In this document: piece after piece, positions 1 to 34,382 of the stretch
Layout: each line of letters starts with the position of its first letter
How positions within the stretch are numbered: the stretch's first letter is position 1
DNA from: Piscirickettsiaceae bacterium
GTDB lineage: Bacteria; Pseudomonadota; Gammaproteobacteria; Nitrosococcales; Methylophagaceae
NCBI GenBank assembly: GCA_013215805.1
Contig: JABSQM010000002.1
Location: 1-64,000, forward strand
Reading direction: 5' to 3'
Length of the DNA: 64,000 nucleotides
The notes under the pieces: model-generated
Database searches by the model: none
Told to the model about the DNA's origin: nothing
Seen by the model: only the letters and a program-made list of their open reading frames with translations
Program-made: the position numbers and the translations under genes

Positions 1-900
1 ACTAACTTTCTATCCTTCCATGTCCGAGCATTTTTAAATAATTTACGTAATTCGACCATATTGCTAAGGGGCGAAATCCCATCCGATAATAATCTTTCAT
101 CCCTCAATGCCTGCCGATTTTTAACTAATTTTTGCAATTCGACTATATTTTTTAAGGGCAGAATCTTATTCCATACTAACTTTCTATCCTTCGATGTCCG
201 AGCATTTTTAAATAATTTACATAATTCGACAATACTCTTGGGGGGCGAAATCTCATCCAATAATAACCTTCCCTCCCTAAGTGCCTGCCGATTTTTAAAT
301 AATTTCTGCAAGATGCCCATATATTTGATGGACACATCATCCCATAATAACTTTTCAGCCTTCCATGCCTGCGAATTTTTAAATAATTGCTGTAATTTGA
401 GCACAGTGATGCCCATATGTTTGAGGGACACATCATCCCATAATAACCTTCTACCCTTCAATGCCTGCTGATTTTTAAATAATTTCTGTAATTCTAACCC
501 AGCGCTGACGACAGAAATGTTATTCCATGCCAACCTTCCATACCTCAATTCATGCTTATTTTTAAATAATTTATGTAATTCAAGCACGGTGTCAAAGAGA
601 AAGATATTATTCCATGATAACTCTTCACCCTTCAATACCTGCTGATTTTTAAATAATTTACGTAATTCGAACTCATTGTTGAAGAGCAAAAGATGATTAA
701 ATGATAACTTCTTGTCCGTAGAAATATGCCAGTCAAAAGATTTCATAAACCTATCCCATAATAACTTTCTAGCCTCCCGTGCCTGCTCATCTTTAATTAA
801 TTTCCGTAATTCTAACTCATTGTTGAAGAGCGAAAGATGATTAAATGCCTTCCTCCTATCCTTCGGTCCCTGCAATTCAATAACCGTTTCTTGCAATTCG
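1..900 (-). repeat. Tandem 87-bp (29-aa) coding repeats inside bamA
   Basis: About nine recognisable copies plus degenerate ones lie head to tail in the bamA frame. The codons for the Asn of the KLFKN-type motif start at about 30, 117, 204, 291, 375, 471, 558 and 645, with a diverged copy near 789. The spacings are 87, 87, 87, 84, 96, 87, 87 and 144 bp. Every difference is a multiple of three. Each unit reads roughly ELxKLFKNxQAL, then a charged stretch, then LLWDDIS and a variable spacer. The composition (Leu, Lys, Arg, Glu) suggests amphipathic helices rather than beta-strands. The array continues past the window edge. Confidence 0.92.
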
Positions 901-3098
901 ACCATATTTTTGAAGGACCGAATACTATTCCATAATAAATTTCCATCATTAACCAACTTGAAGTCGTTTTTACGATAAGATTCGACAGGTCCCAAAGAAT
1001 TCTGTGGATAGCCTCTAACACTATTGATACCGCCAGCATAAAAACTTTCGAAAAATGGAACTGTATGAGCTCCAGCAGCACCCAAATATCCCAATCTCCC
1101 ACTTAAAGCCAATACAAACCTCTTTGACAGAGGTTTATACCAATTATATGCATATCCTAATTTATAATATGGTAATGGACCAAAAGGAATCAATTTTGCA
1201 GTTACTTTCTGAAGCATTCCTAGTGTGGGAAGAATAATATTATTACGACTATCATACGACCAAGTGAACGTAAAATTCACGATATTGAAACTGGCGCCCT
1301 CTGAAGACATAAATCTTTTATAACTTGTGATTTTCTTAGCAAACAGCTGTTTCACATCGACAAATCCACTGGGATATACAGAAGCATCATGGAATGATTC
1401 ACTATACGATTTATCATTCGATCTCTCATGCAATCCCTTATCCGGTTCCTTATTTATTTTATCTCTAACGCCAATTTGCACATTTACATAGCCTATTGCC
1501 AAGCTAACACGCTCATATGTTGCAATTGGGGCTCCGGCATTAACAGATCCTCCAATACTATTAGTCACATAGCTCGCTATATTGGCACCACTCAGATTTC
1601 CACCGCGATAAAAAATACCAAAACCATGACTAATGCCATATCTTTTCAAGATAGGATTAATATAACCAAAACTATAAAGTCTATTAACACGGCCATTATT
1701 AAAAGCAAATTTAATATGCTTACCACTTCCCAAAAAATTTTTATGCAGAACCTTTGTCTTAAGAATAATCCCAATATCTTTTTCCCAACCAAGATCAGCC
1801 TTGACATTCCCCGCGCGATGCTCAGCGATATTAAAATGAAGATTAATAAGATCATCTTCATCAGCGACGGCAATAGTGTCAATTTTCACCTTCTTGAAAT
1901 AACCTAATCGCTTAATATTGACAAGTGACCTATTCAATCGATCAAGTGATATCCAGTATGATTCTGCTTGACGCAGTTCTCGTCGCAATACCTCATCCCT
2001 AGTCGCAGTATGTCCAACTATACTGATACGTTGAACATAGACACGACGACCAAAATCAATGATAAATATTAATGATACTTGAAGAATATCGCGTTTAATT
2101 CTAGGCACTACATTAATCTTGGCAAATATATACCCATAAGAACTTAATGCATTAGTCAAAGACTTTAAACTTTTTTTTACCTCTCCACCAGAAAATACAG
2201 AACCACTTCTAATGGTGATGAGACGGAACAATTCATCTTCTGGTATGATAGAATCACCAATTAATTCAACCCCCATAATTTCATAGCATAAACCTTCAAA
2301 AATATTTATTGTAATAAAAATTTGTTGAAAATCAATAGAAACAGATATTTGGGTTGATTCAATAACAAAGTCAGCATAGCCTTGATCCAAATAAAATGCA
2401 CTCAATATTTTTAAGTCATTCAATAGTTTTGTACGAGAATAATTATGTTTATCAGATCTGCCAATAAATAATAACCTCATTAATAACCTACTCTTAATAT
2501 ATATTGATTTAAAACTATTCAATAATTTAGATTCCTTAAATATTTCATTACCTACTATATTAATCATAGTAAGTTTTGCCGTAACACCTTGAGTCACAGT
2601 AATACGAACAGAGGCACTGTTATCTTTTGAAGAAATAGTAACATCCGATTCAATGGTACAACCGTACATACCATGTTCGAAATACTGGCGTTGTATTTCT
2701 AATTGACCACTTTTAAGTGCAGAAGATACAAGAGGTTGCCCTGTGGTAGTACCATAATGAACTAACATTGCAATTAGATCCTTGCTCTTCACAGCCTTAT
2801 TTCCAACGAATTTGACAACTGAAACGATAGGATTCTCAACGACAGTAATGATCAAAACATCCCCTTTCCTTTTTATACGCACATTATTAAATAATTTTGA
2901 TGCATATAACGAACGAATGATATCTTTTTCACCTTTATCGCTTATCTCATCGCCAGTATCAATTGACAGAAAGTTAAGAGCTCTTCCAGATGAAATATGT
3001 TTTAAGCCATTAATTTCAATGGCTTTGATAGTAAAGTTATATGCCAATGCTCCATTTGTAACCAATAATAGAACAATGAAACTAAATAATTTTTTCAT
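1..3098 (-). CDS. bamA: BamA, outer-membrane protein assembly factor, with a tandem-repeat insertion in loop 6 (3' end outside the window)
   Basis: BamA is the central pore of the BAM complex and folds beta-barrel proteins into the outer membrane. I read the minus frame codon by codon from the ATG at 3098 to the window edge and found no stop, giving at least 1032 residues (E. coli BamA has 810 in total). Residues 1-20 are a signal peptide (MKKLFSFIVLLLVTNGALA). Five POTRA-like segments follow to about residue 430, then barrel strands. The loop-6 signature appears as VRGYPQNSLGP at about residues 693-704. In place of the short loop and last strands expected there, the frame enters a 29-residue tandem repeat that continues to position 1. 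The final barrel strands must lie outside the window if the protein works. Upstream, rseP is decayed but dxr, cdsA and uppS are intact. The identity is firm; whether the repeat-bearing protein functions is unknown. Confidence 0.93.
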   Translation of the reverse strand, partial: MKKLFSFIVLLLVTNGALAYNFTIKAIEINGLKHISSGRALNFLSIDTGDEISDKGEKDIIRSLYASKLFNNVRIKRKGDVLIITVVENPIVSVVKFVGNKAVKSKDLIAMLVHYGTTTGQPLVSSALKSGQLEIQRQYFEHGMYGCTIESDVTISSKDNSASVRITVTQGVTAKLTMINIVGNEIFKESKLLNSFKSIYIKSRLLMRLLFIGRSDKHNYSRTKLLNDLKILSAFYLDQGYADFVIESTQISVSIDFQQIFITINIFEGLCYEIMGVELIGDSIIPEDELFRLITIRSGSVFSGGEVKKSLKSLTNALSSYGYIFAKINVVPRIKRDILQVSLIFIIDFGRRVYVQRISIVGHTATRDEVLRRELRQAESYWISLDRLNRSLVNIKRLGYFKKVKIDTIAVADEDDLINLHFNIAEHRAGNVKADLGWEKDIGIILKTKVLHKNFLGSGKHIKFAFNNGRVNRLYSFGYINPILKRYGISHGFGIFYRGGNLSGANIASYVTNSIGGSVNAGAPIATYERVSLAIGYVNVQIGVRDKINKEPDKGLHERSNDKSYSESFHDASVYPSGFVDVKQLFAKKITSYKRFMSSEGASFNIVNFTFTWSYDSRNNIILPTLGMLQKVTAKLIPFGPLPYYKLGYAYNWYKPLSKRFVLALSGRLGYLGAAGAHTVPFFESFYAGGINSVRGYPQNSLGPVESYRKNDFKLVNDGNLLWNSIRSFKNMVELQETVIELQGPKDRRKAFNHLSLFNNELELRKLIKDEQAREARKLLWDRFMKSFDWHISTDKKLSFNHLLLFNNEFELRKLFKNQQVLKGEELSWNNIFLFDTVLELHKLFKNKHELRYGRLAWNNISVVSAGLELQKLFKNQQALKGRRLLWDDVSLKHMGITVLKLQQLFKNSQAWKAEKLLWDDVSIKYMGILQKLFKNRQALREGRLLLDEISPPKSIVELCKLFKNARTSKDRKLVWNKILPLKNIVELQKLVKNRQALRDERLLSDGISPLSNMVELRKLFKNARTWKDRKL

Positions 3099-3149
3099 TC
3101 ATATATCTATAATATATAATCCGCCAAAAAATATCATAAGTGTACCTGC

Positions 3150-4340
3150 CAGACACTTATTATCCGGATGGCCTCGATAAGGTATTTAAAAAACAATATT
3201 AATAAAATTACCAAGTTTATATATCATAATTTGAGTCTGACTTAATCGAAGTCACAACTCTATATTCATTCGACGAAGGCATGTTTAAATGCCATGATCG
3301 GGTGATAAGCCTATTATTTACAAGCTTACGTTAACCCCATAGCAATAATATAATTGACAATATGAACCCAACTCCAGAAAACACGCCCACAATCTGGACA
3401 ATACTAGATGGATCTATCAAAATTATCCTGTGATATTATCCTGGATAACATCCAGAACTAGCTTTTTACTGTATGTGCATTAACCTGCCAAGTGCTTCTA
3501 ATATTATTTTAGATACCAGAAAACAACAAATATACTGACTCCGCCTTTATACTAAAAGCAGGCATTGCAAAAAAATAAAAGGAATTGACGCCCATACCAT
3601 ATATCCAATATAATAACTCATATTTTCTGGTACAATTAATGGCCTAAAGTTATATCTAAAATAACTTACGATATATTAGGCTGGCATATCTATGATTAAT
3701 TTAACCCAAAAATTTACAACACATCCATAAAAGTGTGCGTTGCTATTTTTAAGTTTTACTCGTTCGGAGGTACTGCTGACTACATTAATCATATAAGTGT
3801 GGCAGAAATAATCGATAAATCATCACACTCACCTATCTGATAGGTTAGGCTAGACGTAACCGCCTATTCGTACTTCTGTACATCATATCTCATACTAACT
3901 ATTCAAAGTTTATATTCAAATTACATATATAAACTCAGATTATATACCCGGTAATTATTATGACTTACTCGATAGTCAATTAGGGAATATTTCGGAAGTA
4001 GAGTAGTAACTATAATTCTTCGAATGATGATAGAAACAAGCCAATAGAACATATATGAAAACAAAATTTACAATTAGGAACACATATACGGTACCTAAAA
4101 AGCCTACAGTAATTGCTCATTAAAGATCTAACTCAATGTATCTGAATACTTATAATATTCATTTTCATCTGACATCTGGAAATAATCATATATTCAATAC
4201 TAATTTTAAATTTAATAGACCAAAAAAATTACCAAATAATAACGAATTTAGATATTGCCAACCTAAAAGTAGTGCTACACCCACAATCGCTCCATCCCTA
4301 TGAAATGGGACCTATAATGATAATACGATGAGAAAGAGCA
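3150..4340 (-). pseudogene. rseP: Decayed rseP (site-2 protease) remnant
   Basis: The 1.25 kb between dxr and bamA is where rseP lies in the conserved dxr-rseP-bamA order, and it has no long open frame. On the minus strand, fragments resemble the RseP C-terminal half in the right order. A TWQV...T segment followed by MLSRIIS lies at about 3440-3500. DPSSIVQIVG lies near 3385-3413, like the GPxSIAQxAG motif. LIEAIR lies near 3165-3182, like the family YLIEAIRG. Frameshifts and stops separate them. Near 4270 a CG...FR piece could match the N-terminal CGVKVLRF region, which is weak. RseP is the intramembrane protease of the sigma-E envelope stress response. The call rests on synteny plus short matches. 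Confidence 0.6.
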
Positions 4341-4351
4341 AAAAATATATA

Positions 4352-5527
4352 TTATTTTATAAATCTTAAGGCAAGTCGACGTGATTGCTTATCATCTGAC
4401 AAAATTTGTTGCAAGGTATCACCATCACTCACTGTCATCGTTGACAAAACATGATCAATAACACGAGCGATATCAGTGAATCTAATCTGCAAGTGTAAAA
4501 ATGCGTCTACTGCTACCTCATTAGCTGCATTTAGTATCGCTGCACTTGTACCGCCAGCTTTCAAAGCTTGATATGCTAAAGACAAACAAGGAAAACGCGC
4601 ATGATCCACAGCTGAAAAATCTAACCTTGATATTGCCACCAGGTCTAATGGCTCAACACCCGAATCCATTCTGTCTGGCCACGCCAAGGCATTTGCAATC
4701 GGCGTACGTATATCCGGATTACCCATTTGAGATAATACAGAACCATCAATATAATCAACCATTGAATGGATAATACTCTGACGATGAATAATTACTTCCA
4801 TTCGTTCAATTTCTAGGCCAAACAAATAATGTGCTTCGATAACCTCTAAGCCTTTATTCATCATAGTAGCAGAATCAACTGAGATCTTCTCCCCCATCGA
4901 CCAATTTGGGTGGGCTACTGCTTGCTGAGGCGTTACACACTCAAGAGCAGATAAATTATAATCTATAAATGGCCCTCCAGATGCTGTTAGAATAATTTTC
5001 CTAATTCCCTTGCCATCATAATTAAATTGTTGAATATTACCAATAGGTAGGCACTGCCAAATAGCATTATGTTCACTATCCAACGGCAATAATATTGCAC
5101 CGTATTTTTTGACTTCAGCCATAAACAAAGAACCGCTCATTACTAGCGCTTCTTTGTTTGCTAATAAAACATATTTCCCTGCTCTCACTGCTGCTAAAGT
5201 TGGCAATAGCCCCGCAGCACCTACAATTGCAGCTACTACATAATCTGCCTTTATACTTGTAGCCACATGAGTCAAAGCTTCGCTACCCGATAATACCTGT
5301 GTGTTAACACCCGCCAATTTCAAACTTTTGGCTAATAACTCAGATGATTGCCCATCTAACATCACCACAATCTCTGGTTCAAATTGCTTGCACTGCTCTA
5401 GCATAATATCAAATGAACTATCTGCTGTTAAGGCATAAACCCTATATTTATCAGGATGTTGAGCTAATATATTAAGTGTATTCATACCTATAGAACCGGT
5501 TGATCCCAAAATTGTCACCACTTTCAC
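4352..5527 (-). CDS. dxr: 1-deoxy-D-xylulose 5-phosphate reductoisomerase
   Basis: Dxr converts 1-deoxy-D-xylulose 5-phosphate to 2-C-methyl-D-erythritol 4-phosphate with NADPH, the committed step of the non-mevalonate isoprenoid pathway in the cytosol. The 391-residue length is usual. The N-terminal Rossmann motif GSTGSIG is at residues 8-14. ANKEAL (near 125), the metal and substrate segment DSEHNAIWQCL (near 150) and ASGGPF (near 182) are all present. The start is GTG at 5527, whose G is the last base of the cdsA stop (TAGTG), so translation is probably coupled to cdsA. Its product feeds the undecaprenyl carrier made by the neighbouring uppS. Confidence 0.97.
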   Translation of the reverse strand: MKVVTILGSTGSIGMNTLNILAQHPDKYRVYALTADSSFDIMLEQCKQFEPEIVVMLDGQSSELLAKSLKLAGVNTQVLSGSEALTHVATSIKADYVVAAIVGAAGLLPTLAAVRAGKYVLLANKEALVMSGSLFMAEVKKYGAILLPLDSEHNAIWQCLPIGNIQQFNYDGKGIRKIILTASGGPFIDYNLSALECVTPQQAVAHPNWSMGEKISVDSATMMNKGLEVIEAHYLFGLEIERMEVIIHRQSIIHSMVDYIDGSVLSQMGNPDIRTPIANALAWPDRMDSGVEPLDLVAISRLDFSAVDHARFPCLSLAYQALKAGGTSAAILNAANEVAVDAFLHLQIRFTDIARVIDHVLSTMTVSDGDTLQQILSDDKQSRRLALRFIK

Positions 5528-11214: not shown

Positions 11215-14030
11215 CTAAATAAACTCCATCACTAATTGTAACTTCATCAGAAGTATATGTAAAACAGACCATTTTAAAGATAACAATAATTATTATTTTA
11301 GTAATTACTTAAAAAAATACATCAACCACGTCTGCAAGATCCATTTTTAGAAAATGCCAGATAATATTGATTCCAAGCAAGGACAAACTGTAATATATTC
11401 AATTATAAAATAATAATTTAGATAACGTCAATATACTAAAGTATTAAAATGGTTCAATTATGGCAAAGAAATTATAACTGAAAAATTACGCCATCCATTC
11501 ATAGTACAAACTTAAATTGTAAAACTCAATCCATCAGTTTAGCTGCGACCTCCATAAATCTCATCCAATTTCTTCGAATTGATCATGAAATATTGGTATA
11601 TAAATTAGTAAAGCACTTGAATTATGCAAGGGTGTGGGCAACTTATAAACCAGGATATTAATGATTTAAAACAATCCGCCTAAAATATATCATTATATGG
11701 CAGGCTATCTTTGATTATACAAATCAAGACAACTAACGGTCAATAATAGAAATTAGGATAATACATGTCTCACTGAAATCTACAAAGATGAAATAGATTG
11801 AAAATAAAAATATAACGATGATAACAATAATTTTCAAGCTTAATAAATTTAATAAATTTAATAAATTTAATAAATTTAATAAATTTAATAAATTTCCTGC
11901 TGAATTTAACAATATACAAAATTAATTAAGTAGCATAATGTTTGATTTCAACAAACCTTAAGAGAATAAAAGTAATGGTAAATTTATAGCTGGTAGTAAA
12001 TATAGGATATAAATAATGCACAACTATTATGCGCAAAGATAGGTCCCAGCCATACCTATTAGCCATTCAAAAAGGCAATGGATGATTGAACATTAACGTG
12101 AGCTAGCCACAAATTAACATGACTCAAAGTCAATATAGTATATGTGCCACTGAACATATGCAAAATGATTATTAATATATGTACCTAATAAAATACTTGA
12201 ATAGGATATTGTCACATATTGTGTGCAATGAAATAAATTAATATTATTGATAATAAATACTTCAGGAATTATAAATAAAAACATTGGATTTATAACCTCT
12301 GAAATAACATTATTAAAATTATTATTAATGATACAGCAACACCATAAAGATTAAAGACGTACAGATGACATACCATTGGTAATGATATATTAAATTACAT
12401 TATATTAACGATAACAAATTTGAAAAATTAATATTTGAAGGCACAACCTAACTCATGTACATTATAAATCAGCCAAAGTAACGTCACCCAAATAATCCCA
12501 TAATATAAATACATTTGGCATTTTAAAAGATTCATACACCGGAACCAGAATGAATCATTTTCTCACACACAATATGGATCCTATCCATAAAATACCATAA
12601 ATCAACATAACATTGTCCTTCATACGTAGCTTGCACTAATTTTCTATATATAATTTAAAGATTCATTCATACTTATTAGCTTAGTCCATTGTTCAATTAT
12701 TTTATCAGGCAGAATTATTTTGCATATCAGAATCTTATTTATGATATTAGGCAGAGGTCGAAATAACAATCATAGTATGTTAGGACTAAAGCATTCCAAG
12801 AATTTATAAAAATTACCATGATATTAGGCGCTATAATTTTAAGTATATTATTATCTTATATTTACACTGAAAGATATTAAAAGTTCCGGAAATCACAAAC
12901 AAAATTTACTGATTTTAGTAAAAAGCATCTATCTAATTAATTACGTAATAATGAAAAACAGCAAATAATAATTGAATCATGGTAATCACCCGATCAGATC
13001 TAGATACCCAATGAGACCCTGGATAAACAAATTCATCTATATATCACTACTTTATTATTAAAATAAAATAAAAATCATATGAATAAATTTATACGAATAC
13101 TTAAAATGCATGGATTTAACCATATTATAGTTAATATTAAATAATAAAGATGAATAGTGCACGACAAATATTCATGACAGCATTTTTCAGAGCATTATTA
13201 TGATTTACATAGGATTAATTCAATGCACACAACAACATAATAAGTACTAAATTAAAATAAATTTAATAGCCAACCGCTCCTATCAAATTTATATTCTAGC
13301 TATTATATCTCTAATGCTAGATCCACTAAATTTTATTTCTAGCCTCAATCATCATATTGAAAATACCTATTTTCACTGATTTAATCCAATTACTCATATT
13401 TAGGATAGTTTTCCTGATTTTACGACTTGGCAAACACACTATTAGATAACAGTGATATTAAAATATCAGTTCCAAAATGATTTCACATAATCCAATAAAT
13501 TTTTGTAAAAAATACGGTATTTATGATATCTAATAAATGTCTAATATATGTAAGTATAATTATCGCATAGACAACAGTCTCAAATATATTATCCATCATT
13601 ACACTCATCATCCTATCTTAATCTAATTAGACTCCAAGAATTGAAATATTTCATCTGCTTACGTATAACGTAATATATTAACTAATATCATAGCAAATTA
13701 GGAAGGTGCAAATGCCAAAATAAAAAGATCCCAGATCATACTAATTTGTATGTTAATTCCCAAATATTAGCTTCCTCCAGATTATCACATATATTTTACT
13801 GGCCTAAAATAGGTAATATATACTAATGTTTTATTAAAACAACAATGTTTACTTTCACTTGTTGACCAGAAGAAACAAAAATACTTAATAATTAAATAAA
13901 TTAATACATGTGTTCAATACGCTTTCATGTTCAGATAATAGTCCTTTGTCCATAAACTTTAAAAATATAACTATACTAAAGACGGTTGATTATCCCAAAT
14001 GGCCCACGCACGATTGATCTTCACTAATAT
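11215..14030. other. 2.8-kb gene-free AT-rich region
   Basis: There is no open frame of convincing length or composition on either strand here. In Betaproteobacteria map is commonly followed by glnD (about 2.6 kb), so the size fits an eroded glnD. I looked for GlnD motifs and found none, so this is only a positional guess. The one clear structure is the AATAAATTT array at 11842-11895. Confidence 0.7.
11842..11895. repeat. Six perfect tandem copies of AATAAATTT
   Basis: The 9-mer AATAAATTT repeats six times without a mismatch from 11842 to 11895, inside gene-free DNA. AAATTT makes each unit partly self-complementary. It is a short microsatellite-like array, probably from slippage. It has no iteron-type companions such as dnaA or DnaA boxes nearby, so I do not call it an origin. 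Confidence 0.9.
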
Positions 14031-30258: not shown

Positions 30259-33090
30259 ATGACTATAAACCAATTGATATTATTAATATTCAAAATCGTA
30301 TTCTTCGGAATAATAAATACCGTGAACGCTATTGAGAGGAATCAGATAGTCCAAGATCCACTCATTTTTTCTAGTACGTTGAAGAACGGCATGAGTTATT
30401 CAATAATGAAAAATGCAGTTCCTAAAAATACCGCATCCATTCGACTATATTTTCGAGTTAGGTCTTTGGATGAAAACGATGGAGAGCAAGGCTACGCACA
30501 CTTCGTTGAACATATGGCCTTCAATGGTTCATTGAATATACCTGAAGGCGAACTTATTAAAATCCTACAGCGTCAAGGACTAGAATTTGGTTTCGATGCA
30601 AACGCTAGCACATATTCTGATAAAACAATCTATATGCTGGAACTACCTCATATGGACGGGGAAACACTTAATACCGCCTTAATGCTGTTGAGCGAAATCG
30701 CAAAAAACTTGAGTTTTGATGAAATGGCGGTTCGTAAGGAAAGGGGCGTGATACTCTCCGAGTATGACGTGGATGATAGCGACAGCCTCGATGTCTACCA
30801 CCAACAACTCGAGCACTGGCTGCCAGGATCTCGTACAAACGAGCATTTTCCTATCGACACTAAAAACACCATATCCATGGCGACAGGGAAAGCCTTGCGA
30901 ACCTTCTATGAAGCATTCTATCGACCGGAAAATGCCTTTTTAGTAATTGTCGGGGATGTGAAAATAGCCGATATTGAGAACAGTATATTAGAACATTTCG
31001 AAGGATGGCTAAATAAAACAAAGACAAGGAATAACAACTATGATCAACCACACCTCTGGCAGACATCCGATAAAGTGGCTACCTATACAGCCATACATAA
31101 GGACAGATATCCTGCGAATACTCAACTAGGGATAATTAAACCCTGCAAAGAATGGTCTAACTCATGGGAGGAAATCGGAAATTATTATAAAATTTCGCTT
31201 GCCAACCATATATTTAAGCAGCGTATTAATAAAATTGCCCGCACAGGTGAAGCGCCTTTCACTAACATTTACGTAAGCTATGAAAATCTCTACGATGAAG
31301 CCATGCTTGCTATGTTGAGTTTAAATACCTCTAATGAAGATGCCATCGACGCAACAGCTGTAGCAGAACAAGAACTTCGTAAAATGCTGATTCATGGATT
31401 TACCATTAACGAAATTAAGGAACATATTGCAAATTTTTTGGTAGGTTTCAAATATGACGTTAATAATGCAAATAAAAGGCATAACAGGGAATTAGCGAAT
31501 GCTATTTTGAACGGCCATCATAATGGATATAAGATCCTGCATCCTGAAAACGAATTAGCTATTTTCGAATCTGCCGTAAAAAATATGACAGCGAACGATC
31601 TAACAAAAGTGTTCAGAGAAGTATGGTTCGGCGAAAACAAGTATCTTATAATTACAGGTGATCATATAAAGGATGCTGAAACTAAGCTGAAGAAAGCTAT
31701 TATAAAATCAATGAAAATATCAGTAACAGCCCCTATAAACCATCATACGCCACATGAATTTGCCTATAATAATTTCGGCCCATCTGGAGAAATTGATGTC
31801 GAAGAAACAATACTAGATCCTGAAGTTACAAAGGTAAGATATAAGAATAATGTATTGCTCAATATCAAGAAAACTACTAACGAGGATGTCACAGCTCGCA
31901 TGATCGTACGATTTGGAAGAGGAATAGTATCTTTTCCCAAGGAATTAGCCGGCATCGAGATGCCTTGCCCAATTGTGCTTTACTGATGGCGGATTGAAAA
32001 AACATAAAGTAGAAGATATTGAAAGTCTCATTGCAGGCACCTCAGTTTCAGCAGATCTAAAAATTTATCATGATACTTTTTCCATGAGCGCTATCATTCG
32101 GTCCCAAGACGTGCTGTTACAGTTGCAACTGGGCGGCTTATATTAGTGATCCAGCATTTCGCTCTGAAACATATAAATTTTACAAACGTATTATTACAGA
32201 AGAATACGATACACTCAAAGATTCTCCACAGCAAGCCATCAACCTCGAAATTGGTAGATATATTTACGGTGGGGATCCTCGTTTCTATCTACCTCCACTC
32301 GAGCATCTGATGAAACTTGATATTGAAGATCTCAAAACTACGATGATTCCAGACCTACTTAAAAGCCCCATCTAAATTACGGTCGTAGGAGACATAAATA
32401 TAGAAAAAGTTAAGGCTGATGTCGCTAATACATTTGGTACATTCCCCCCACGCGAACAATCAACAACCAATAAAGAACAACTTGCTAGAGATAAAATTTC
32501 GTCCTAATAATAGTTCTATAGTTCTCCGCCATAACGGCACAGTAAACCAAAGTCTATTACAAATATATTGGCCAACAGATGATAACAGCAATATTAAATT
32601 AAGCACACAAATGTCACTTTTAGCAAGGATTATCAAGATTAAACTGATTGAATTGGTGCGTGAAAAAAAAGGCATTTCTTATTCACCAGATGTAACAAGT
32701 TTAATGTCTTCCACAATTCCCAATTATGGGTATTTCATGATAGAGACCGACTTATCGCAAGATGAGTTTGATGCTGTGGAGGAACTATTTGCAGATATTA
32801 TCAAAGATATACGCAACAATCTAATTGATGATGATCTCCTCAAAAGAGCTAGAAACCCAATCATGGAGGCAATTAGGAATAGTAAAAACTATAATAGCTA
32901 CTGGCTACAAGCGCTTCAACGCATTCAGACTGCACCTAAAACTATTAAGAGAATCAAAAAGAAGGTAATAATTGACATACTCGAGCAAGCAACGGCGGAT
33001 AGCATGCGATATATTGCATATAGATACCTCAGACCAGAAACACTTTTCAAAGTTCGTGTTATTTATGAAGGTTCTGAACAACTACATTAA
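30259..33090 (+). pseudogene. M16-family zinc metallopeptidase (PqqL-like), broken by frameshifts and a stop
   Basis: The first 575 codons read as an exported M16 peptidase: a signal-like N-terminus (LILLIFKIVFFGIINTVNA), then HFVEHMAFNG with the HxxEH zinc motif at about residues 82-86, and a downstream glutamate region. The frame stops at 31986, but homologous-looking sequence continues in other frames. One runs to a TAG at 32144. Another covers the SDPAF...FYLPPLEHLM region to an in-frame TAA at 32373. A third frame covers the C-terminal domain to 33090 (SYSPDVTSLMSSTIPNYGYF and onward). So there are at least three frameshifts and one stop. The total fits a roughly 930-residue two-lobed peptidase. 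Decay looks recent because long parts are still clean. Confidence 0.88.
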
Positions 33091-33281: not shown

Positions 33282-34382
33282 TTACTTTATCCCCCCCCGA
33301 ATAAAGTCATTAGTCTTAATATAAGCTTCATCATCAGAAAACTGTTTAGGTGGATGTTTACAAAAATAGGCTGATGGCCCCATAATAATTCCACCTTGTC
33401 CCCGATTCAATGCAAGCTTGGCACAACGAATAGTATCAATAGCCACTCCAGCTGAATTAGGAGAATCTTCCACCGATAAACGCAATTCAAGATTCATTGG
33501 CACATCACCAAATAATTTTCCCTCCATACGAATGAAGGCAACCTTATTGTCTTTCTGCCAAGCCACATAATCGCTGGGTCCGACATGAATATTCTCGTCT
33601 TCCAACCGCGTTTCTAATACCGATTGTACAGCCTCAGTCTTAGATTCTTTCTTAAAGGCTAAGCGGGCACTATTTTTCATATTAAGAAAGTCTGTATTGC
33701 CACCAGTATTCAATTGATAGGTACGCATCAATTTTACCCCCCGTTTTTTAAATAAATCGGTTAAGGTACGATGCGTAATCGTTGCGCCTAGTTGTGCCTT
33801 AATGTCATCACCTATAATAGGTATGTTTTTATCCCTGAAGCGCCTTGCCCATTCTGGATTACTAGCGATGAATACAGGAATATTATTAACAAAAGCAACA
33901 CCTGCTGCTAATGAACATTCGGCATAAAATTTTGACGCATCCTCTGAGCCCACAGGCAAATAATTCATCAATACTTCAGCTTTCGAATTCCTCAATACAT
34001 TAATAACATCTTCCTTCTTAGGTTCCTCCTCATCTGCAAGAAGGAACGTATTGTCATCTGCATAGTCCTTCATATGCTCTGAAAAACCATCGAGAATTTG
34101 ACCCATATGTACTTTTACTCCCGATGATGGAATGTCTGAATAAAATTTGGTAGTACAATTAGGACTAGAAAAAATAGCTTTATTAACATCTAATCCAATC
34201 TTACGTTGATCAATATCAAACGCAGCAACAATGTTGATGTCTCCAGGAGCATAACCACCTATATCCCAGTGCATTAAACCAATAGCATTACATTCTGTTT
34301 TATTACGATAGTAATAAATACCCTGAATCAATGAACTAGCACAATTTCCAACACCAACAATTGCTACTTTAATATTACTCAT
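33282..34382 (-). CDS. ino1: Inositol-3-phosphate synthase (bacterial/actinobacterial-type Ino1)
   Basis: Ino1 cyclises glucose 6-phosphate to 1D-myo-inositol 3-phosphate with NAD+. The 366-residue protein closely resembles the short bacterial form known from Mycobacterium: NAD-binding VAIVGVGNCASSLIQG (6-21), LPVGSEDASKFYAECS (near 137-152), GDDIKAQLGATITHR (near 184-198), NTGGNTDFLNM (near 220-230) and VEDSPNSAGVAIDTIR (near 306-321). The C-terminus contains a run of eight G on the coding strand (33291-33298). The gene has no neighbours that use inositol in this window. Its product could go to a phospholipid, a solute or the host. The start is ATG at 34382. Confidence 0.93.
   Translation of the reverse strand: MSNIKVAIVGVGNCASSLIQGIYYYRNKTECNAIGLMHWDIGGYAPGDINIVAAFDIDQRKIGLDVNKAIFSSPNCTTKFYSDIPSSGVKVHMGQILDGFSEHMKDYADDNTFLLADEEEPKKEDVINVLRNSKAEVLMNYLPVGSEDASKFYAECSLAAGVAFVNNIPVFIASNPEWARRFRDKNIPIIGDDIKAQLGATITHRTLTDLFKKRGVKLMRTYQLNTGGNTDFLNMKNSARLAFKKESKTEAVQSVLETRLEDENIHVGPSDYVAWQKDNKVAFIRMEGKLFGDVPMNLELRLSVEDSPNSAGVAIDTIRCAKLALNRGQGGIIMGPSAYFCKHPPKQFSDDEAYIKTNDFIRGGIK

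Follow-up and report, generated by a model that had tools for sequence, protein, structure and literature searches.

BamA is among the most constrained of outer-membrane proteins, and its loop 6 is central to function: in BamA structures the VRGF/Y hairpin of this loop reaches into the barrel, from where the polypeptide returns outside. The nearest described case of a BamA with enlarged loops is found in the Bacteroidota BAM. The BamA of F. johnsoniae has 76 extra residues in loop 5 and 16 in loop 6 and carries an extracellular canopy, and such loop extensions are retained throughout the phylum or within Flavobacteria and bind partner lipoproteins (PMC12611786). BamA also serves as the receptor for CdiA-EC93, and its extracellular loops, which vary dramatically between species, determine recognition (PMC5371414). 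In-frame tandem repeats of variable sequence are reported on the exposed portion of MSP1a, an outer-membrane protein of Anaplasma marginale (PMC3679145).

Here we describe a BamA whose loop 6 holds at least 786 residues of tandem repeats, an array that roughly doubles the protein. It spans about 27 unit lengths, with 24 scored units and more in an assembly gap. The gene lies at the edge of the window, that is, the whole 64,000-nucleotide stretch analysed (G000:C12:1-64000), and belongs to a Methylophagaceae genome of 1.15 Mb that is rated 100% complete. All features tested assign this giant BamA to the BamA family, in which its loop is of a new kind. With canonical BamA (TIGR03303; E. coli 5D0O, N. 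gonorrhoeae 4K3B; Methylophaga) it shares the signal peptide, five POTRA domains, the Omp85 barrel, the VRGF/Y motif of loop 6, the C-terminal phenylalanine and the gene order dxr-(rseP)-bamA-skp-lpxD-fabZ-lpxA, but its loop 6 is longer by at least 786 residues, inserted in the return limb, and its loop 4 by about 42. The Bacteroidota proteins offer a likeness in that their enlarged loops, loop 6 included, form a structure outside the membrane. In contrast to them, the giant BamA has an array that is at least ten times longer, sits in loop 6 and occurs in a single species within a family of Gammaproteobacteria, and its enlargements fall in loops 4 and 6 rather than in loop 5, the platform on which the Bacteroidota canopy is built with BamG, BamH and BamM. 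The repeats of MSP1a are reported to lie at the N-terminus of a dedicated surface protein, whereas those of the giant BamA lie between strands of an essential barrel; and the variation known from the CdiA-EC93 receptor concerns short loops, not large insertions. Searches of the open-access literature yielded neither a description of a BamA with a large loop 6 array, in agreement with the sequence-only reading from which this analysis started, nor a paper on a reduced Methylophagaceae symbiont.

Table 1. Features of the giant bamA locus; coordinates refer to the window, except where prefixed L006 (piece at the start of contig C1)
Feature	Position	Strand	Remarks
Contig C12 end	1..2	.	Unbridged assembly gap inside the array; overlap of 0 with the C1 start
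bamA 5' part	3..3098	-	Signal peptide, 5 POTRA, barrel to loop 6, 326 repeat codons; from ORF, Pfam, TIGR03303
29-residue repeat array, window half	3..980	-	aa 707-1032, 326 codons, 9 scored units
VRGY motif of loop 6	1008..1019	-	aa 694-697 = E. coli V660-F663
Loop 4 insertion, about 42 aa, lineage-specific	1335..1463	-	aa ~546-588; gap in all relatives
POTRA domains 1-5	1827..3035	-	aa 22-424, boundaries approximate; Pfam and domain table
Ruined rseP	3099..4351	-	Between dxr and bamA; remnants 3407-3553 and 4035-4193
dxr	4352..5527	-	Conserved neighbour, rate control
29-residue repeat array, C1 half	L006:2-1381	+	460 codons, 15 scored units

The bamA frame runs for 1,032 aa without a stop and is still open at the window edge, which is also a contig edge, the window starting at base 1 of contig C12. 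Five stretches in its N-terminal part matched POTRA in Pfam, and TIGR03303, the NCBIfam model of BamA, was covered over positions 1-642 of 741 with 544 bits against a cut-off of 297. In a fold search with the AF2 model of this part, BamA barrels ranked first (E = 4.5e-10), with low TM-scores because the array makes up more than half of the model. The remainder of the gene was located at the start of contig C1, as a 553-aa frame on the plus strand (L006:2-1663) that leads through 460 repeat codons into SMSFLGTAAIILPFPF, then DAGNVY, LRYSIGIGATWISPVGG and finally FSLGSTF, a C-terminal beta-signal with its terminal aromatic residue. This piece matched TIGR03303 over positions 625-741 with 80 bits, a score in line with its being a fragment, and the Omp85 profile was divided between the two pieces (positions 1-220 of 325 in the window, 208-325 on C1). 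The halves have diverged to a similar degree from their relatives (46-49% identity for the N-terminal part, about 43-52% for the C-terminal part), and the same unique array stands at both contig ends. Downstream of bamA on C1 follow skp, lpxD, fabZ and lpxA; the order dxr-bamA-skp-lpxD-fabZ is intact in two genomes of the same genus, one of which, 42_25_T18, has rseP between dxr and bamA. Given the complementary profile matches, the like divergence, the shared array and the synteny, we infer that the two pieces are one bamA of at least 1,585 codons, joined across the gap. Suffix-prefix comparison of the contig ends gave an overlap of 0, so that the array must be lacking some of its repeats; except for this unbridged gap, the anatomy of the giant BamA is secure. 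The profiles, the VRGY motif and the uninterrupted frame thus uphold what the sequence-only reading had proposed, namely a BamA with an in-frame array in loop 6. Its estimate of about 320 open repeat codons up to the window edge is close to the 326 found, and the frame does rejoin the last barrel strands, on C1, as that reading had asked to be checked.

Where exactly the array enters the loop bears on whether such a barrel could work. The motif VRGYPQNSLGP occupies aa 694-704 of the frame; its G703-P704 correspond to E. coli G669-P670, at which point the alignment to E. coli stops. Alignment with relatives placed the insert between NSLGPVE and IGGSMSF, a site at which the Methylophagaceae relatives have 8-13 residues and one genome of the same class (G030) has an insert of 44. 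The array is thus placed in the loop's return limb, beyond E. coli residue ~670, and leaves the lumenal VRGY hairpin untouched. The insertion had been read as directly following the RGY motif; the loop was right, but the position is in a length-variable limb and not against the hairpin. Because the hairpin points inward and the chain then runs outward, the topology of BamA predicts an extracellular array and a free hairpin. With that hairpin and all barrel strands kept, the barrel should still work. The insertion in loop 4 falls between the positions equivalent to residues ~536 and 560 of E. coli BamA.

The array begins after VRGYPQNSLGPVE, from where the frame runs on through an 87-bp repeat (980-3) for which Tandem Repeats Finder reported a period of 87, locally 96. 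The units share the 29-residue consensus LQKLvKNqQaLkdkRLlWnnispfdtglE, in which L1, L4, L16 and W18 are retained in 15-20 of the 24 units. All 24 scored 28-62 with a 29-residue profile, compared to 12.6 for the best of 200 residue shuffles; the profile was made from the units themselves, so that these scores measure repetitiveness and are no independent test. No stop occurred in the 786 codons of both halves, where 200 dinucleotide-Markov sequences led us to expect a mean of 55.8 and a minimum of 41. The GC content of the array (35%) is like that of the window. The two halves share one stretch of 106 bp at 92% identity, and identical aligned residues of different units share their codon in 84% of pairs versus 51% expected, which indicates that the copies are young or homogenised. 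Elsewhere in the window, and in the first 15 kb of C1, we found no comparable array, arguing that repeats are not expanding generally.

Nor did we find the array in any of 56 other Methylophagaceae genomes. A class-wide survey of 369 genomes contained BamA frames longer than 900 aa (936-1356 aa) among the matches listed, but each of these matched the barrel query in one piece, meaning that loop 6 is uninterrupted. Relatives of the array were absent from the phages, plasmids and viral contigs searched, and a mobile or phage origin was accordingly not seen.

AF2 recovered the barrel strands in the model of the N-terminal part, and it drew the array as helices with a pLDDT mostly of 27-50 and local peaks up to about 83. 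The helical hydrophobic moment of the units was 0.17, compared to 0.22 for the shuffled consensus, so that they are not amphipathic. Pfam revealed no repeat family (TPR, HEAT, ankyrin, LRR or others) above the cut-off in either half of the array (E up to 5), and the array matched PDB entries only at chance level. The pore-capping helical array initially envisaged is not supported by these results, and the claim of an amphipathic helix capping the pore was dropped: pLDDT is mostly below 50 and the units are not amphipathic.

The differences between units gave an indication of the forces acting on the array. Across all 24 units they amounted to 0.46, 0.46 and 0.40 at the three codon positions, the third being the lowest. 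On 16 clean units, codon models estimated omega at 4.86 (lnL -1003.1 vs -1028.4 with omega fixed at 1). The underlying tree joins repeats between which segments are exchanged, a process that tree models cannot accommodate. Other settings gave 4.2-7.2 with fitted kappa and 2.7 without kappa, and a column bootstrap gave 4.0-12.7. For the same 16 units the relative variability of third positions was only marginally reduced (ratio 0.82, bootstrap 0.61-1.03, P = 0.043). Counted on the tree, dN/dS was 0.87 at nine core positions, picked post hoc after their conservation had been seen, and 1.80 elsewhere.

Amino-acid-changing differences that outpace silent ones suggest that the array may be a surface-exposed, diversifying domain for contact or shielding, and a role in surface interaction fits this excess. 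We envisage that repeated in-frame tandem duplication of the 87-bp unit enlarged the length-variable return limb of loop 6, and that the downstream barrel strands, being indispensable, would hold the array in frame. Outside the cell it could then face the host, phages or bacteriocins, any of which is a putative partner. The giant BamA, encountered in one genome only, is presumably expressed. That the array is real, translated, surface-exposed and diversifying within an essential barrel is the reading we favour over the others, although we give it only even odds. More tentative, and a claim we would not yet favour, is that it has been positively selected as an interface with hosts or attackers and that BAM assembles a barrel with a loop about the size of the remaining protein. 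If tolerated, such an insertion would show what load of polypeptide one loop of a BAM-assembled barrel can carry, and if the array is truly diversifying, an essential assembly machine would at the same time be a variable surface antigen or a receptor shield.

The main rival of a diversifying array is neutral in-frame expansion, in which slippage and unequal recombination lengthen a tolerant loop, selection only purges stops and frameshifts, and the array is functionless. The condition of the genome speaks for it. The closest relatives of the giant BamA are those of Methylophaga sp. 42_25_T18 and 41_12_T18, which places the genome in a genus whose other examined members measure 2.1-2.4 Mb, about twice its size. 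Its rseP is ruined: tblastn with RseP of 42_25_T18 recovered two remnants (E = 1e-5 and 0.012), and no Peptidase_M50 (site-2 protease) was detected in the source genome, compared to 14 of 14 controls. An M16 peptidase gene is split as well. RseP is essential in E. coli, and its ruin therefore implies that the envelope stress pathway has probably been rewired here.

Neutral expansion is also in keeping with the divergence of the protein as a whole. In trees built for 40 species, the giant BamA had a terminal branch of 1.25, compared to at most 0.19 in the 39 relatives, and all domains were accelerated, the periplasmic POTRA domains being as diverged as the barrel. The terminal branches of cdsA, dxr, skp, lpxD, fabZ and lpxA were within the longest of the respective family or at most about 1.6-fold beyond it. 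That of LptD, which needs BAM for its assembly, was the longest in its set (0.94 vs at most 0.56), in a protein of normal length (735; L149, G000:C23:256257-257354). A fast LptD and diverged POTRA domains mean that the acceleration reaches beyond BamA and beyond surface loops, which points to a lineage-wide change and not to a surface arms race alone. Likewise, an array with only sub-threshold Pfam matches and no PDB match, not amphipathic and mostly devoid of a confident fold, is what a functionless sequence might look like. However, drift with a filter against stops predicts an omega of about 1, and 12 neutral simulations indeed returned 0.80-1.20, far from the observed estimate; the retained leucines and tryptophan of the unit and the lack of comparable arrays in the window and on C1 are further points against it. 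On balance, we consider neutral expansion rather unlikely.

Alternatively, the array could act as an extracellular canopy or folding aid that overhangs the BamA seam and assists the assembly of outer-membrane proteins. The loop extensions of F. johnsoniae BamA serve in this way (PMC12611786), loop 4 is enlarged here too, and outer-membrane quality control appears altered, with rseP ruined and TamA, the second Omp85 protein, not detected in the source genome, where no Omp85 match besides BamA was obtained. Several relatives encode a TamA, but two (G004 and G006) do not, and these, with one Omp85 match each, have a BamA of ordinary length. BamB, BamD (YfiO), BamE and Skp, as well as LptD, are all encoded. 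Moreover, purifying selection would be expected between the copies of a chaperone-like domain, and none was seen. We thus regard a canopy as improbable. The idea that the array substitutes for lost accessory factors is weak: BamB, BamD, BamE and Skp are in place, and only the loss of rseP and the undetected TamA are in line with it. Still, a hyper-diverged BamA together with a ruined rseP and an undetected TamA amounts to a natural experiment in the remodelling of outer-membrane biogenesis.

That unrelated contig ends were brought together, or that repeats interrupt a pseudogene, as a single assembly with contigs ending inside a repeat without overlap might suggest, is very improbable in view of the stop-free frame, the complementary halves with matching divergence, the conserved operon on both sides, an array GC content that matches the window, the standing of this BamA as the only Omp85 match in a genome rated complete, and the normal length of LptD.

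Besides the bamA locus, the window contains three minor features. A perfect 9-bp tandem repeat, TTAATAAAT, is present in 6.2 copies at 11840-11895, and no listed ORF of at least 150 aa covers it. The M16 peptidase gene at 30259-33090 on the plus strand, split into two frames of 575 and 223 aa, is probably decaying. Close by, at 33282-34382 on the minus strand, lies a gene for a myo-inositol-1-phosphate synthase (PF01658), which seems unusual for a gammaproteobacterium and may have been acquired.
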